DNA of 9,020 bases from Candidatus Eiseniibacteriota bacterium (GTDB taxonomy: Bacteria; JAFGKV01), in NCBI GenBank assembly GCA_025453925.1, contig JALOPK010000115.1, positions 1 to 9,020 on the forward strand, in the 5' to 3' direction. The notes below the pieces were generated by a model. The model had not been told where the DNA came from. It searched no databases and worked only from the letters and a program-made list of their open reading frames with translations. Position numbers and translations under genes: made by a program. Positions 1 through 9,020 of this stretch are shown piece by piece (within the stretch, counting starts at the first letter, position 1; each line of letters begins with the position of its first letter).

Positions 1-485
1 CCTCCCGGCACAACGTGACGCGCATGGCGGAGAAGGCCGGCTGCACCGTCATGGCCGAGACCCGCGGAGACGGCATCTACCTGGAGATCAGGAAACTGAA
101 CGCGCCAACCCAGCCGGCCGTCCCCGCGACGGGCGCCGCACCTATCGGCGGGCCGCTGGTCCTCGTGGTGCCCAGCGAGTTCTTGGGCCGCGGCGACGAG
201 GAATTGGGGCGGATTCTGGTTCGGAGCTTCTTCCATACGCTGGGTGAAGTGCGGCCCCTGCCTGACTCAGTCATCTTCCTCAACAGCGGGGTCAAGCTGG
301 CAGTGGCGGGTTCGCCCGTGCTGGATGACCTCCAGGAGTTGTGCGCGCAGGGGGTGGTTATCTTGGCGTGCGGCACATGCCTGGGCCACTACGAATTGAA
401 GGACCAGCTCAAGGTCGGGGAAGTATCCAACATGTACGACATCGCTGACGCGCTGTTGACCGCGGGGAGGCTGGTGAGTCTATGA
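1..485 (+). CDS. yedF: YedF-type selenium-metabolism protein, 5' truncated
   Basis: The reading frame is open from the window edge (codons begin at base 3) to TGA at 483-485, giving 160 visible codons. The first residues, SRHNVTRMAEKAGCTV, match the end of a TusA/SirA-like domain, and GIYLEIRK closes that domain. After a short linker rich in Ala and Pro comes a DsrE-like domain starting at PLVLVVPSEFLGRGDEELG and ending with a conserved block, LACGTCLGHY then LKVGEVSNMYDI. A TusA-like domain followed by a DsrE-like domain is the layout of the YedF family, which commonly sits beside selD. The cysteine in CGTCL lies where the family has a conserved cysteine. Its biochemical role is not settled; a role in handling sulfur or selenium before SelD is inferred from context. 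GTG at 15 and ATG at 24 are internal codons, not the start, because the domain continues upstream. The gene overlaps selD by 4 nt. Confidence 0.88.
   Translation, partial: SRHNVTRMAEKAGCTVMAETRGDGIYLEIRKLNAPTQPAVPATGAAPIGGPLVLVVPSEFLGRGDEELGRILVRSFFHTLGEVRPLPDSVIFLNSGVKLAVAGSPVLDDLQELCAQGVVILACGTCLGHYELKDQLKVGEVSNMYDIADALLTAGRLVSL
464..470 (+). promoter_or_regulatory. Ribosome binding site deciding the selD start at 482
   Basis: GGGGAGG lies inside the end of yedF, 11 nt before ATG 482. No comparable purine-rich site sits at suitable distance before ATG 542 (the preceding bases are GCTGAGCCGCAAAG), so the site favours the upstream start that reads through the UGA. Confidence 0.5.
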
Positions 486-1531
486 CGGACAATCGAATCC
501 GCCTCACGGCGTTGACCACGGCCGCCGGCTGAGCCGCAAAGATGGGCCCCGAGGCTCTGGCGCAGGTCCTGCGCCCTTTGCACGGCATGTTTGCGGCAGA
601 ACGGTTCCCCAAACTTCTGGTGGGCCTCGAAATAAGCGACGATGCCGCGGTGTACAAGATCACCGATGATGTCGCGGTGATCCATACGGTGGACTTCTTC
701 ACGCCCGTGGTGGACGACCCCTACGACTACGGCTCCATCGCCGCGGCCAACGCCATGAGCGATGTCTACGCCATGGGGGGCGAGGTGGTAATGGCGCTGA
801 ACATCTGCGGATTCCCACCCTCGTTGCCCGTGGAGATCATCGCGGAGATTCTGCGCGGAGGGGCCGAGAAGGTGCTGGAGGCCGGCGGAGCCCTGGCCGG
901 CGGGCACACCATTGAAGACCCCGAACCGAAGTATGGGCTCGCCGTCATGGGAATCGTTCATCCGGCACACATTCTGACCAAGGGCGCCGCGCTGCCCGGC
1001 GACATCCTGGCCCTCACCAAGCCGCTGGGCGCGGGCATCATTACCACCGCGGCCAAGGGCGATGCCGCCAACCCTGCCCACCTGCCGCTGGCCGTCGAGA
1101 GCATGAAGCGGCTCAACCGGGAGGCGACGCGCCTGGCCCGGCTGGTCGGCGTTCACGCATGCACCGACATCACCGGCTTCGGGCTGCTCGGCCATGCATG
1201 GGAAATGGCGGAGCGTAGCGGTGCGCGGCTTCTGTTCGGCCTGGATCGGCTTTCCTTCCTCGATGGTGCGATCCGGTATGCCGGGGAGTGGCTTTTCCCG
1301 GGAGGAACGTGCCGTAACGAGCAATGCTATGGCCGCCACGTTGAGTTCGCGCCTGGCATTCCCGACGAGATGCGCCAGCTTCTCTTCACGCCGGAGACGT
1401 CGGGGGGGCTGCTGCTGGCCGTGCCGCCCGACAGAGCGGACTCACTCATGGCACGCTTCGCCGCGGCCGGGCAGCCGGTGTGGGTTATCGGGGAAGTGAC
1501 CGAGGGACAGGGCATCATGGTCGAGGGGTAA
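482..1531 (+). CDS. selD: Selenide, water dikinase (selenophosphate synthetase), selenocysteine-containing
   Basis: SelD makes selenophosphate from selenide and ATP, the selenium donor for selenocysteine and selenouridine synthesis. Translation from ATG 482 gives MTDNRIRLTALTTAAG, then UGA (530-532), then AAK and MGPEALAQVLRPL. The N-terminal IRLT...GxxxK pattern is the SelD signature, and UGA is codon 17, the position of catalytic Cys17 in E. coli SelD, with Lys20 conserved. Reading UGA as Sec gives 349 residues, close to the usual 347. Further family motifs are DDAAVY (53-58), TVDFFTPVVDDP from residue 69, NAMSDVYAMGG (90-100), GGHTIEDPEPKYGL, CTDITGFGLLGH from residue 227, GGTCRNEQCY, and FTPETSGGLLLAV. 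A start at ATG 542 would delete the glycine-rich loop, the Sec and the essential Lys, leaving an inactive protein, so I reject it. The start overlaps the yedF stop (ATGA), suggesting translational coupling. The C-terminus ends VTEGQGIMVEG. Confidence 0.95.
533..586 (+). promoter_or_regulatory. Bacterial SECIS-like element of selD
   Basis: Directly after the UGA (530-532) the mRNA can fold into a two-part hairpin. The lower stem pairs GCAAAG (536-541) with CTTTGC (576-581), extended by GCC (533-535) with GGC (584-586) across a 2-nt bulge. A 17-nt 5'-side bulge follows. The apical stem pairs GGCGCAG (559-565) with CTGCGCC (569-575) without mismatch, and the tip reads GCAGGTCCTGC. The GGUC at the tip matches the SelB-binding apical loop of the E. 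coli fdhF SECIS (GCAGGUCUGC). The tip starts 32 nt after the UGA, within the spacing usual for bacterial SECIS elements. The fold was found by eye and its stability was not calculated. Confidence 0.8.
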
Positions 1532-2114: not shown

Positions 2115-4841
2115 ATGTCGGGAGATTCTGAGCCAATCGAACGAGTGACCAGCAGTCACGCGACCGCACCGGGGATTGTCGACGGGGCGCCGGGGTCCCC
2201 GGAGGAGCCGTTTGGCGCCATGTTCGAGAGGCACGGCGCGGTGATGCTGATCATCAGCCCTGACGATGGCCGAATCGTCCATGCAAATCAGGCGGCGGCC
2301 CGCTTCTACGGGTATCCCTTGTCAGAACTCCAATCCTTGACAATCCACGCTGTCAGTCAGGTGTCCTACGACGAGGTCGACCGGGCCATGGCGGAGGCCA
2401 AGGCCGGCCGGCGCACCCGTTTCGAGTTTCCGCATCGATTGGCTGACGGCGAGATTCGCCATGTCGTCATCCACGCCTCTCCGGTGAGCTTCCGGCATCG
2501 CACGCTCCTGTTCTCGATCCTCCACGACATCACGGGGCGAAGGAAGGCCGAAGATCTTCTGCGTTTCACGCAATACGTGGTCGATCACATGACTGATGGG
2601 GTGTTCTGGGCAAGGGCAGACGGCCGGCTGGCATACGTGAACGAGGCCGCGTGCCAGAGACTGGGCTATTCCCGCGAAGAGCTGCTGACGCTCCGGGTGA
2701 CGGACCTGGTTGCGGAGTACACTGAAGCGCAGTGGGCCGACCATTGGCGTGCGGTCAAAGAAAGGGGATCCCTGGTCTTCGAGAGCCGGCACGTGCGAAA
2801 GGACGGAGGGGTCTTCCCGGTGGAGATACGAACCACTTTCGTCCACTTCGAGGGGGAGGAGTATGCCTGCGGCATCGTCAGCGATATCACCGCGCGCAAA
2901 CACGCCGAATCGGCTGTATGCGCCAGTGAGGAACGGCTGCGTCTCATCGTGGAGGCGACACCGCTGGCATTGCTGATGGGCGAGTTGGAAACGGGGAGGG
3001 TTCTGCTGGCCAACGAGTCCTTCTGCGAGCTCTTCGGGTATCAGCGAGACGTGATCATGACCATGCGCTCGGCGGACTTTTACGCAGATCCGGAGCGCGA
3101 TCGGCCTCGCATCGCGGCGGCCCTGCGCGAACATGGTCGCATACGGCAGTGGGAGGTGCCGGCACGCAGAGCGGATGGCACGGTATTCGACGCGTTGCTC
3201 TCCTACGAGCTGGTGCAATACGGCGGTCAGGCCGCGGCCGTGGGAGTCGTCTATGACTTGACTGAGCGAAAGCGTGGCGACGCGGCACTCCGCGCCAGCG
3301 AGGAGAAGTTCCGGCTGCTGGTCGAGACGTCGGCGGATGTGATCTGGACCATCAATGAAGCGGGCCGGTTCACGTATGTGAGCCCTGCCATCATGCAGTT
3401 GCGCGGGCTCACGCCGCAGGAGGCGATGCGGGAATCCATCTCCGAGGCGGTGTGCCCCGAGTTCCTACCGCGAATCACCGAGGCTCTCGGCAGGAGTGCG
3501 GAATCCCGGAAGTCGGGGAACACCGGCTTCACGGACCACATGGAGATCCAACAACCCCGCAAGGACGGTTCCCGGGTCTGGGTAGAGATCATCACCCGGG
3601 AGCTCCATGACGAGAGCGGTCGCCGCGCCGGCGCGCTGGGCATCTCCCGCAACATCAACCGGCGGAAGCAGGCCGAAGCCCAACTGCTGGAGTCCCGGCG
3701 ACTGCTCGAGGCGCAGAATCAGGAATTGCGGAAGCTGATTGTGGCAATCGAACAGAGCGGCAACACGGTGGTCATCACCGACTTGGACGGCACGATCCTG
3801 TATGCCAATCCGCGCTTCGAGGAGACCACGGGTTACACCTCACGGGAAGCGCTGGGCCAGAATCCGCGAATCCTCAAATCCGGCGAACTCGATGAGCCTC
3901 ACTATCGCGCCATGTGGGACGCCATCTCCGGCGGGCAGATCTGGCGTGGCGAGTTCCACAACAAGCGCAAGGATGGCTCGCTCTACTGGGAGGCGGCCAC
4001 CATCGCCCCGGTCACGGGCGCGGATGGACGGATCACCAACTACATCGCCATCAAGGAGGATATCACCGAACGCAAGGAGGCGCAGGAAGCATTACTCCGG
4101 TATGCGAGACAACTGGAAGCCCAGAACGCCGAGCTGGATGCCTATGCCCACACGGTTGCCCACGATCTCAAAGGCCCGCTGGGCGTGCTGGTGGGCTTCT
4201 CCGAGCTGCTCGCCGAGACTCCCTCGATGGCCGGGGACGAGCAGACCGCCATGCTCGACCACATCAGACAGATCGGCTGGCAGATGACCCGGATCGTCGA
4301 TGCCTTGCTCCTGCTTTCCGCTACGCGTCGGAAGCAGGTGAAGATCGAGCCGCTGGAGACGGCGCGCATCGTCGACGCAGTCCAGGAGCGGCTCGGGCCG
4401 ATGATTGATGAGGTGGGGGCGGAGATCCGCCTGCCGGACGCGTGGCCGCCCTCCGTGGGCTACGCTCCGTGGGTCGAAGAAGTCTGGGTGAACTACCTCA
4501 GCAACGCGATCAAGTACGGAGGCCGTCCACCCCGGGTGGAGCTTGGCGCTGCGCTCCTGGCCGATGGTCAGGTACGCTTCTGGGTGCGCGACAACGGGGA
4601 AGGGATCGGGCCCGACGACCAACAGAAGCTGTTTGCTCCGTTCACCCGGCTTCGCCAGGTCAGCATCGAGGGGCATGGCCTGGGGCTTTCCATCGTGCGG
4701 CGAATCGTGGAGAGACTGGGCGGCGTCGTGGGTGTCGAAAGCGAGCTGGGGCAGGGAAGTCTCTTCTTCTTCACGCTGCCTCAGGCGCAGACGGCGAGTG
4801 CCGATTCCCCTCCACCTTCCCTTACGGAGATTGTGCCGTGA
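2115..4841 (+). CDS. Soluble multi-PAS sensor histidine kinase (five PAS, HisKA, HATPase)
   Basis: This 908-residue protein has no transmembrane segment or signal peptide, so it should sense a cytoplasmic cue. Five PAS domains lie in a row, about residues 36-145, 150-268, 275-395, 400-530 and 545-670; each repeat ends in a DIT/DLT-ERK type motif (DITGRRKAE, DITARKHAE, DLTERKRGD, NINRRKQAE, DITERKEAQ). PAS5 has GQNPRILKSG where LOV domains carry GxNCRFLQ, so it is not a blue-light LOV domain. A coiled-coil linker (RQLEAQNAELDAYAHTV) leads to the H-box AHDLKGPLG with phospho-acceptor His683. The catalytic domain shows the N-box NYLSNAIK (793-800, Asn797), G1 box DNGEGIG (826-832) and G2 box GHGLGLSIV from 853. 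There is no receiver domain, so phosphate must pass to a separate regulator. The start has GGGAGA at 2105-2110, and the first PAS begins near residue 36, so a later start at 2220 is possible but less likely. The ligands of the PAS domains are unknown. Confidence 0.93.
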   Translation: MSGDSEPIERVTSSHATAPGIVDGAPGSPEEPFGAMFERHGAVMLIISPDDGRIVHANQAAARFYGYPLSELQSLTIHAVSQVSYDEVDRAMAEAKAGRRTRFEFPHRLADGEIRHVVIHASPVSFRHRTLLFSILHDITGRRKAEDLLRFTQYVVDHMTDGVFWARADGRLAYVNEAACQRLGYSREELLTLRVTDLVAEYTEAQWADHWRAVKERGSLVFESRHVRKDGGVFPVEIRTTFVHFEGEEYACGIVSDITARKHAESAVCASEERLRLIVEATPLALLMGELETGRVLLANESFCELFGYQRDVIMTMRSADFYADPERDRPRIAAALREHGRIRQWEVPARRADGTVFDALLSYELVQYGGQAAAVGVVYDLTERKRGDAALRASEEKFRLLVETSADVIWTINEAGRFTYVSPAIMQLRGLTPQEAMRESISEAVCPEFLPRITEALGRSAESRKSGNTGFTDHMEIQQPRKDGSRVWVEIITRELHDESGRRAGALGISRNINRRKQAEAQLLESRRLLEAQNQELRKLIVAIEQSGNTVVITDLDGTILYANPRFEETTGYTSREALGQNPRILKSGELDEPHYRAMWDAISGGQIWRGEFHNKRKDGSLYWEAATIAPVTGADGRITNYIAIKEDITERKEAQEALLRYARQLEAQNAELDAYAHTVAHDLKGPLGVLVGFSELLAETPSMAGDEQTAMLDHIRQIGWQMTRIVDALLLLSATRRKQVKIEPLETARIVDAVQERLGPMIDEVGAEIRLPDAWPPSVGYAPWVEEVWVNYLSNAIKYGGRPPRVELGAALLADGQVRFWVRDNGEGIGPDDQQKLFAPFTRLRQVSIEGHGLGLSIVRRIVERLGGVVGVESELGQGSLFFFTLPQAQTASADSPPPSLTEIVP

Positions 4842-5239: not shown

Positions 5240-5791
5240 ATGTACTCTCGCACAAGAACGGTGGTGATCGTGCAGGTCGTTGTCGTGTACCAATCGCTGT
5301 GGGGGAACACCGCCGCGGTTGCCCGCGCTATCGCCGAGGGGATCGGGCCTGACGCGCGGGTCGTGTCGACAGCCGAGGCCACCGGGGACGTCCTGACCGG
5401 TACCCGCTTCATTGTGGCGGGTGCTCCCGTGCTTGGCTTCCGCATGCCATCTGACAGGACAGTGGAAAGCATCCGCTTGAATCCGTGCTCCGCTTCCCGT
5501 CCCCCTGATCTCTCGCACCCCTCCATGCGCACCTGGCTGGACGGCCTGTCCGCCAAAAGCGGTTACTCGGCGGCCTTCGAGACCCGGATCTGGTGGTCAC
5601 CCGGCGGCGCTGCGGGTGCGATTCTGCGCGGTCTTGACCGGGCGGGTTATCGACCCCTTGCCAAGGGCCAGAGGTTCATTGTGAAAGGCAAATGCGGCCC
5701 GCTCCGCGAGGGTGAGCTAGAGCGGGCGGTGCAGTGGGGGACGGCGTTGGCGGAGGCCGTCAAGCGTTCGATGGCCGTTCCGACGCGCTGA
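5240..5791 (+). CDS. Flavodoxin-like domain protein
   Basis: This 183-residue product has the opening of a flavodoxin fold: a hydrophobic strand (VVIVQVVVVY), then the FMN-phosphate loop region YQSLWGNTAAVARAIAEGI (17-35), where SLWGNT stands for the usual SxTGNT. A second strand, TRFIVAGAPVLGFRMP, fits the strand and loop that contact the isoalloxazine ring. The C-terminal part contains WWSPGGAAGAILRGLDRAGYRPL and FIVKGKCGPLREGELERAVQWGTALAEAV, the last helix of the fold. The length fits a single-domain flavodoxin-family protein; the electron-transfer role is inferred from the fold. No strong ribosome binding site precedes ATG 5240, and the N-terminus is longer than usual, so GTG 5261, 5264 or 5270 could be the true start. 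A GNAT gene follows 26 nt downstream and is probably co-transcribed. The upstream terminator-like hairpin may control it. Confidence 0.8.
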   Translation: MYSRTRTVVIVQVVVVYQSLWGNTAAVARAIAEGIGPDARVVSTAEATGDVLTGTRFIVAGAPVLGFRMPSDRTVESIRLNPCSASRPPDLSHPSMRTWLDGLSAKSGYSAAFETRIWWSPGGAAGAILRGLDRAGYRPLAKGQRFIVKGKCGPLREGELERAVQWGTALAEAVKRSMAVPTR

Positions 5792-7848: not shown

Positions 7849-9020
7849 ATGCTGCGTACAAGCACACTCGTCGTGTTCGTCTGTGGGGCGCAAATCGCCT
7901 CGGCCTCAGTGTCGATCGGCACCGTCTCGATCACTGAGCTAATCAACAACTGCACGGTGGTCGGCCAGTTCCAAAGCTCGGATGTGCTCGAACTGAAAGC
8001 CCCCATTACCAACAATGAGGGCGTGATGACCATGTTCCGGGTGCTTGTGCGTATGCGTGCGCTGAACGCAACGAGCGAGACGGTCGACGCCAACTACACC
8101 GGGCCGCTATACGTGCAAGGTCTAGCGACCGCCCAGGGCTTTGATGACAGCTACGGGTTGGTCTTCAACACACCAGCGATCGCGAACGGGGCTACCTACA
8201 CCGTCACGGCCCGGCTGGGGCTGCACAACCAATTCCTGGGCGCCATCGGCATTCCCAACAATGGCAGCGGGACGATCAATGTCGACGTGGAAGTCTACAA
8301 GTATGACATGGCCGGTGCGGCCGGCTTCCTTGCTGCCGCGTCCACACCCATCACGGCGTATCGACGCAATACCTGCGGAAACAGCACCAGCGGCACCCTC
8401 GTCACTGATCGTGTCGTGTACGACAGTGTCGGCGACGTGGTCACGATCGAGTGGGGCTCGGCTGGGTGTGATGCCCGGCCCGCGTTTTCCGAGGAAAGCG
8501 CGGCTACGGTGGACGTTCGTCGCATGACGGGGGTCCCCTCTGGTGATCCCGTGGCAGATTTCGGCGGCGCCACCAATGTCGCGTCAATCTCGACGTGGAC
8601 CGCTCATGACATGCCGGACGACGGTTGCATCGTGGACGAGGGCGTGGCTCGCACCTTCTGCTACAGCGATCAGATCGGCACCGTGCAGAGCGCCTCGCTC
8701 TACAACACCTACACGACCCAGACTGACGACGAGAACAAGTACCTGATCATCCGGCTGCCGATCGGCGCAGGCACTGCCAGTCACCCGATCCGTGCCGCAC
8801 AATACAACTACATCTTTGTGGGTAACCCCTTGGCTGGCGATCAGTTGGATCTCGGTGATGCACCTGATCCCAGCTACCCGACCCTGCTGGCCAGTGATGG
8901 CGCCCGGCACATCACGGGCAGCGCAGTTTATCTCGGCGCAGGCGTCGATGCGGAGCTTGATGGCCAGCCTAACGCCGGCGCCACCGGTGATGATCTCGCC
9001 GGCGACGATGAAGATGGGGT
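7849..9020 (+). CDS. Secreted protein with DLGDAPD/DDEDGV segment, 3' truncated
   Basis: An uninterrupted frame starts at ATG 7849 and runs off the window after 390 codons. AAGGAG at 7835-7840, 8 nt upstream, is a good ribosome binding site. The N-terminus MLRTSTLVVFVCGAQIASA is a short signal peptide with an ASA cleavage site near residue 19, so the product is exported. Residues 20 to about 330 are rich in Thr, Val, Gly and Asn, look beta-structured, contain scattered Cys (for example Cys35), and match no family I recognise. From residue 334, DLGDAPDPSYPTLLASDGARH, then VYLGAGVDAELDGQPNA and GDDEDGV, is a segment common in large exported, often multi-domain proteins; its acidic end may bind calcium. 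Such proteins often continue with Ig-like or DUF11-like repeats and a C-terminal sorting signal, which lie outside this window if present. The function is unknown; a surface or extracellular role is inferred. Confidence 0.85.
   Translation, partial: MLRTSTLVVFVCGAQIASASVSIGTVSITELINNCTVVGQFQSSDVLELKAPITNNEGVMTMFRVLVRMRALNATSETVDANYTGPLYVQGLATAQGFDDSYGLVFNTPAIANGATYTVTARLGLHNQFLGAIGIPNNGSGTINVDVEVYKYDMAGAAGFLAAASTPITAYRRNTCGNSTSGTLVTDRVVYDSVGDVVTIEWGSAGCDARPAFSEESAATVDVRRMTGVPSGDPVADFGGATNVASISTWTAHDMPDDGCIVDEGVARTFCYSDQIGTVQSASLYNTYTTQTDDENKYLIIRLPIGAGTASHPIRAAQYNYIFVGNPLAGDQLDLGDAPDPSYPTLLASDGARHITGSAVYLGAGVDAELDGQPNAGATGDDLAGDDEDG

Follow-up and report, generated by a model that had tools for sequence, protein, structure and literature searches.

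The 9,020-nucleotide stretch of DNA analysed here (referred to as the window) contains what is, at a probability of about 97%, a functional Sec-type selD gene, in which an in-frame UGA at positions 530-532 would be decoded as selenocysteine (Sec) with the help of a downstream hairpin at positions 559-575. We infer Sec recoding from three lines of evidence, namely the occurrence of TGA at the same codon in homologues, the presence of the decoding genes in the same assembly, and a SECIS-type hairpin that is under selection.

The selD gene (selenide, water dikinase; 482-1531, forward strand) starts with ATG at 482-484 and ends with TAA at 1529-1531, and its only internal stop is the TGA at 530-532, which is codon 17; the other two forward frames across the same stretch contain 10 and 5 stops respectively. 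With TGA read as Sec (U), the product has 349 residues and begins with MTDNRIRLTALTTAAGUAAKMGPEALAQVLRPL. When Cys was placed at codon 17, the protein matched the NCBIfam selD model TIGR00476 with 372.7 bits (cut-off 125 bits) over profile positions 1-310 of 311, and an end-to-end alignment to the Cys-type SelD of Escherichia coli (PDB 3u0o) put position 17 on the catalytic Cys17 and position 20, encoded by AAG at 539-541 (forward strand), on the conserved catalytic Lys20. In E. coli numbering, the protein thus has the two residues of the SelD family active site, Cys or Sec at 17 and Lys at 20. Based on the full-length match to a curated model, the product is assigned as SelD and predicted to synthesize selenophosphate. 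Despite the same family, the full-length alignment, and the shared Lys20, the two proteins differ around the active site, which reads GCGCK with Cys17 in E. coli and GUAAK with Sec17 in the window. An earlier first-pass annotation, made from the letters alone, had proposed the frame from ATG 482 with a SelD N-terminus and the TGA at the catalytic Cys position followed by Lys at codon 20, and all of its coordinates proved right.

Directly upstream lies the 3' part of yedF (3-485, forward strand), encoding a sulfurtransferase-like selenium metabolism protein (TIGR03527, E 7.2e-46, 156.5 bits with a cut-off of 110), whose 5' end is open as its start is upstream of the window. Its stop codon TGA (483-485) overlaps the selD start in an ATGA (482-485, forward strand), which suggests that translation of the two genes may be coupled.

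The first ATG 3' of the TGA is codon 21 (542), and the mechanical ORF list contains only the frame from this ATG (542-1531, forward strand, 329 residues), which is what a standard caller would report and which lacks 20 residues compared with selD from ATG 482, just as the first-pass annotation had anticipated. That this ATG is present and was taken by the ORF caller would fit a true stop at the TGA and a SelD without its N-terminus. However, codons 1-20 are conserved across phyla with the pattern IRLTxxxxxAGU.xK, many homologues have a residue other than Met at codon 21 (e.g., R, L, W or K), and such a protein would lack both position 17 and Lys20, so that we give this reading hardly any weight. 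The selD gene here is rather a clean case of automatic annotation losing an active-site residue.

To place the TGA among Cys- and Sec-type homologues, a comparison that the first-pass annotation had recommended, we scanned one genome per bacterial species and took the best 80 relatives of the window selD. Codon 17 was TGA in 76 and TGT in three of the 79 readable genes (it was masked in the remaining one), so that the in-frame UGA aligns with Sec or Cys of homologues. The 80 relatives come from groups that include Armatimonadota and, with TGA at this codon, Chloroflexota, Acidobacteriota, Fermentibacteria, and Spirochaetota, and relatives from the same genus and family are among those with TGA. 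Closest to the window selD is a gene from Candidatus Fermentibacteria, with 80% identity from residue 17 on, and in a tree the window selD grouped with Fermentibacteria genes, although this grouping is weakly supported. Because the same codon is TGA in 76 of 79 readable homologues and the frame is conserved, the in-frame TGA is not due to chance. One might suspect a Cys-type selD in which the TGA arose through a sequencing or assembly error or as a fresh nonsense mutation, given that the window comes from a draft metagenome-assembled genome (MAG) and that Cys-type SelD is commoner in published surveys. Of the prokaryotic SelD genes in one survey, 19% carry Sec, invariably at this position (PMC4561486). 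Yet an error or mutation is contradicted by 76 independent homologues with TGA at the same codon, those of the same genus and family included, by the intact remainder of selD, and by selection on the downstream hairpin described below, and we consider it highly improbable.

The MAG (3.9 Mb in 502 contigs, 82% complete, 2.9% contaminated) contains the genes for Sec decoding, all on contigs other than that of the window: selA (contig C390, 523.6 bits), selB (contig C170, 333.9 bits), and selC, i.e., a tRNA-Sec with anticodon UCA (C26:8188-8281, 78.8 bits, ARAGORN). The first-pass annotation had named these three genes as a check on its proposal, and the search thus bore it out. Besides selD, two genes encoding the formate dehydrogenase alpha subunit (fdhA) in the same assembly have TGA at the expected Sec site within the motif DHCARLUHS, and therefore represent further selenoproteins. 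A genome-wide reassignment of TGA (e.g., to Trp or Gly) in place of Sec recoding would be compatible with the in-frame TGA, but with nothing further: elsewhere in the window TGA serves as a normal stop, ending both yedF (483-485) and a histidine kinase gene (4839-4841), the selA and selB reading frames are free of internal TGA, and a dedicated tRNA-Sec is present. TGA is therefore not reassigned, and we regard this explanation as the least probable of those weighed here.

The Sec reading further relies on a SECIS-type hairpin (GGCGCAG-GUC-CUGCGCC; 559-575, forward strand), which we evaluated by folding, by published criteria, and against a null of synonymous recoding. Its arms (559-565 and 569-575) form a 7-bp stem around a GUC loop (566-568) that begins with G, and it lies 33 nt after the UGA with an energy of -12.1 kcal/mol. 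It agrees in all respects with the bacterial SECIS model, which has a loop of 3-9 nt with a G in the first two positions, a stem of 4-16 bp, a spacing of 16-37 nt, and an energy of at most -7.5 kcal/mol (PMC13188914). Since the hairpin stretch encodes the conserved LAQVLRPL, we compared it with synonymous recodings drawn according to the codon usage of the gene in question. The best-hairpin score averaged 11.9 over 84 Sec-type selD genes vs. 7.65 in the recodings (standard deviation of the null means 0.36, largest 8.6), and five control stretches in the same 84 genes gave no excess to a small excess (at most 6.23 vs. 5.41). At the level of the gene group, the SECIS is thus under selection that the encoded protein does not account for.

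Codon usage in the stem points the same way, with observed and expected frequencies of 87 and 45% for Leu CTG, 94 and 30% for Ala GCG (+10), and 97 and 71% for Gln CAG, and, further along, 79 and 45% for Leu CTG and 75 and 40% for Arg CGC. By position, the biased codons are those at +8, +9, +11, +13, and +14 in addition to Ala +10, while the loop valine codon at +12 is unbiased (GTG 40% vs. 48% expected); some other selD codons are skewed as well, yet the skew clearly clusters in the stem arms. As the 84 genes are related to one another, z values of the hairpin and codon statistics are inflated. For the window gene by itself, the hairpin exceeds its synonymous null modestly (P about 0.07, or 0.018 when the core is folded in isolation), and the strong case for a SECIS therefore comes from the gene group.

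RNAalifold recovered exactly the 7-bp hairpin from the 51 sequences with LAQVL and no common structure from all 84, because distant genes differ in sequence at this stretch. One Cys-type relative (L020) keeps the hairpin codons of the Sec type, as would be expected after a recent change from Sec to Cys. Folding around the UGA compared with dinucleotide shuffles gave z values of -0.3 to -1.7, under a null that takes no account of the protein code and in which the hairpin signal is diluted, which is why synonymous recoding was preferred. The Rfam model SECIS_1 (RF00031) had no match in the window's own genome, which is not evidence of absence because it matched no control genome either; no Rfam family matched the window.

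In the mechanism that we propose, SelB carrying Sec-tRNA-Sec would be directed by the hairpin at 559-575 to decode UGA 530-532 as Sec. SelD, with Sec17 in the place of Cys17 and together with Lys20, would then convert selenide and ATP to selenophosphate, which would feed SelA and thereby yield further Sec-tRNA, part of it for the synthesis of SelD. The first-pass annotation had remarked both that Sec occurs at this site of known SelD proteins and that SelD here would depend on its own product; the former is well documented (PMC4561486; PMC1794560), and the latter is part of the known picture of Sec-type SelD.

Sec-type SelD is a long-known and common selenoprotein family with an established mechanism, and among bacterial selenoproteins SelD and FdhA have been described as the most widespread (PMC1794560). 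The window gene shares with Sec-type SelD (selenophosphate synthetase, SPS2-Sec; TIGR00476) its length, Sec at the Cys17 position, Lys20, a bacterial SECIS hairpin directly downstream, and the presence of selA, selB, and selC, with no difference of substance. The host, a bacterium from the Candidatus Fermentibacteria lineage or near it, belongs to a poorly studied part of the bacteria, to which the gene adds a clear Sec-type selD and, together with the decoding genes of the assembly, a selenoprotein-using genome.

A second Sec-type selD is present in the same assembly (L136; C389:17296-18228, minus strand), with one TGA and 61% identity to that in the window. Because it falls with Spirochaetota genes in the tree, it possibly reflects horizontal transfer or contamination of the MAG.

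We also observed NifS-SelD fusions that carry Cys (GLGCACK) and are free of internal stops in four other genomes: L138 (G001:C199), L140 (G002:C33), L141 (G003:C74), and L146 (G032:C66). The G001 fusion protein contains the Pfam domains Aminotran_5 and AIRS. Such fusions are reported as rare in the literature, with an example in Geobacter sp. FRC-32 (PMC2398784; PMC4561486), and have the SelD domain in common with the window gene, which is unfused. In the sister genomes G001 and G002, and in the distant G032, the fusion occurs together with an unfused Sec-type selD. A search for a fusion in the window's own assembly found none, the best NifS match being a separate gene beside a nifU-like gene. 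As a speculative and rather doubtful possibility, selenophosphate supply in this lineage may be split, such that Sec synthesis is primed by a selenium-independent NifS-SelD(Cys), and a Sec-type SelD of higher activity depends on this priming. If so, since the window's own assembly has two Sec-type copies and no fusion, either its fusion belongs to the 18% that the assembly lacks, or Sec-type SelD is all that the organism relies on.

The genes 3' of selD are unrelated to it. They encode a PAS histidine kinase (2115-4841), a 183-residue protein (5240-5791) that resembles flavodoxin only weakly (20.5 bits in NCBIfam) and matches nothing in Pfam, a GNAT acetyltransferase, a response regulator, and a secreted-looking protein, the last being a long ORF (7849-9018) open at the end of the window, with a signal-like N-terminus and no NCBIfam or Pfam match.

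Between selD and the histidine kinase gene are two palindromes, CATATAGGACATGTCC-AATATAGGACATGTCCTATAT, 16 bp apart (1844-1877). With at most one mismatch, the window's own genome contains the motif 50 times in forward and 46 times in reverse orientation, many of these being a single palindrome read on both strands, and a genome of the same genus has 12 forward and nine reverse matches; none were found in the other 11 genomes tried, and a reversed-pattern control gave 0 matches in the own and sister genomes. The palindrome occurs singly or as pairs spaced by 16 bp, with unconserved flanks, and may represent either an operator specific to the genus or a dispersed short palindromic repeat.
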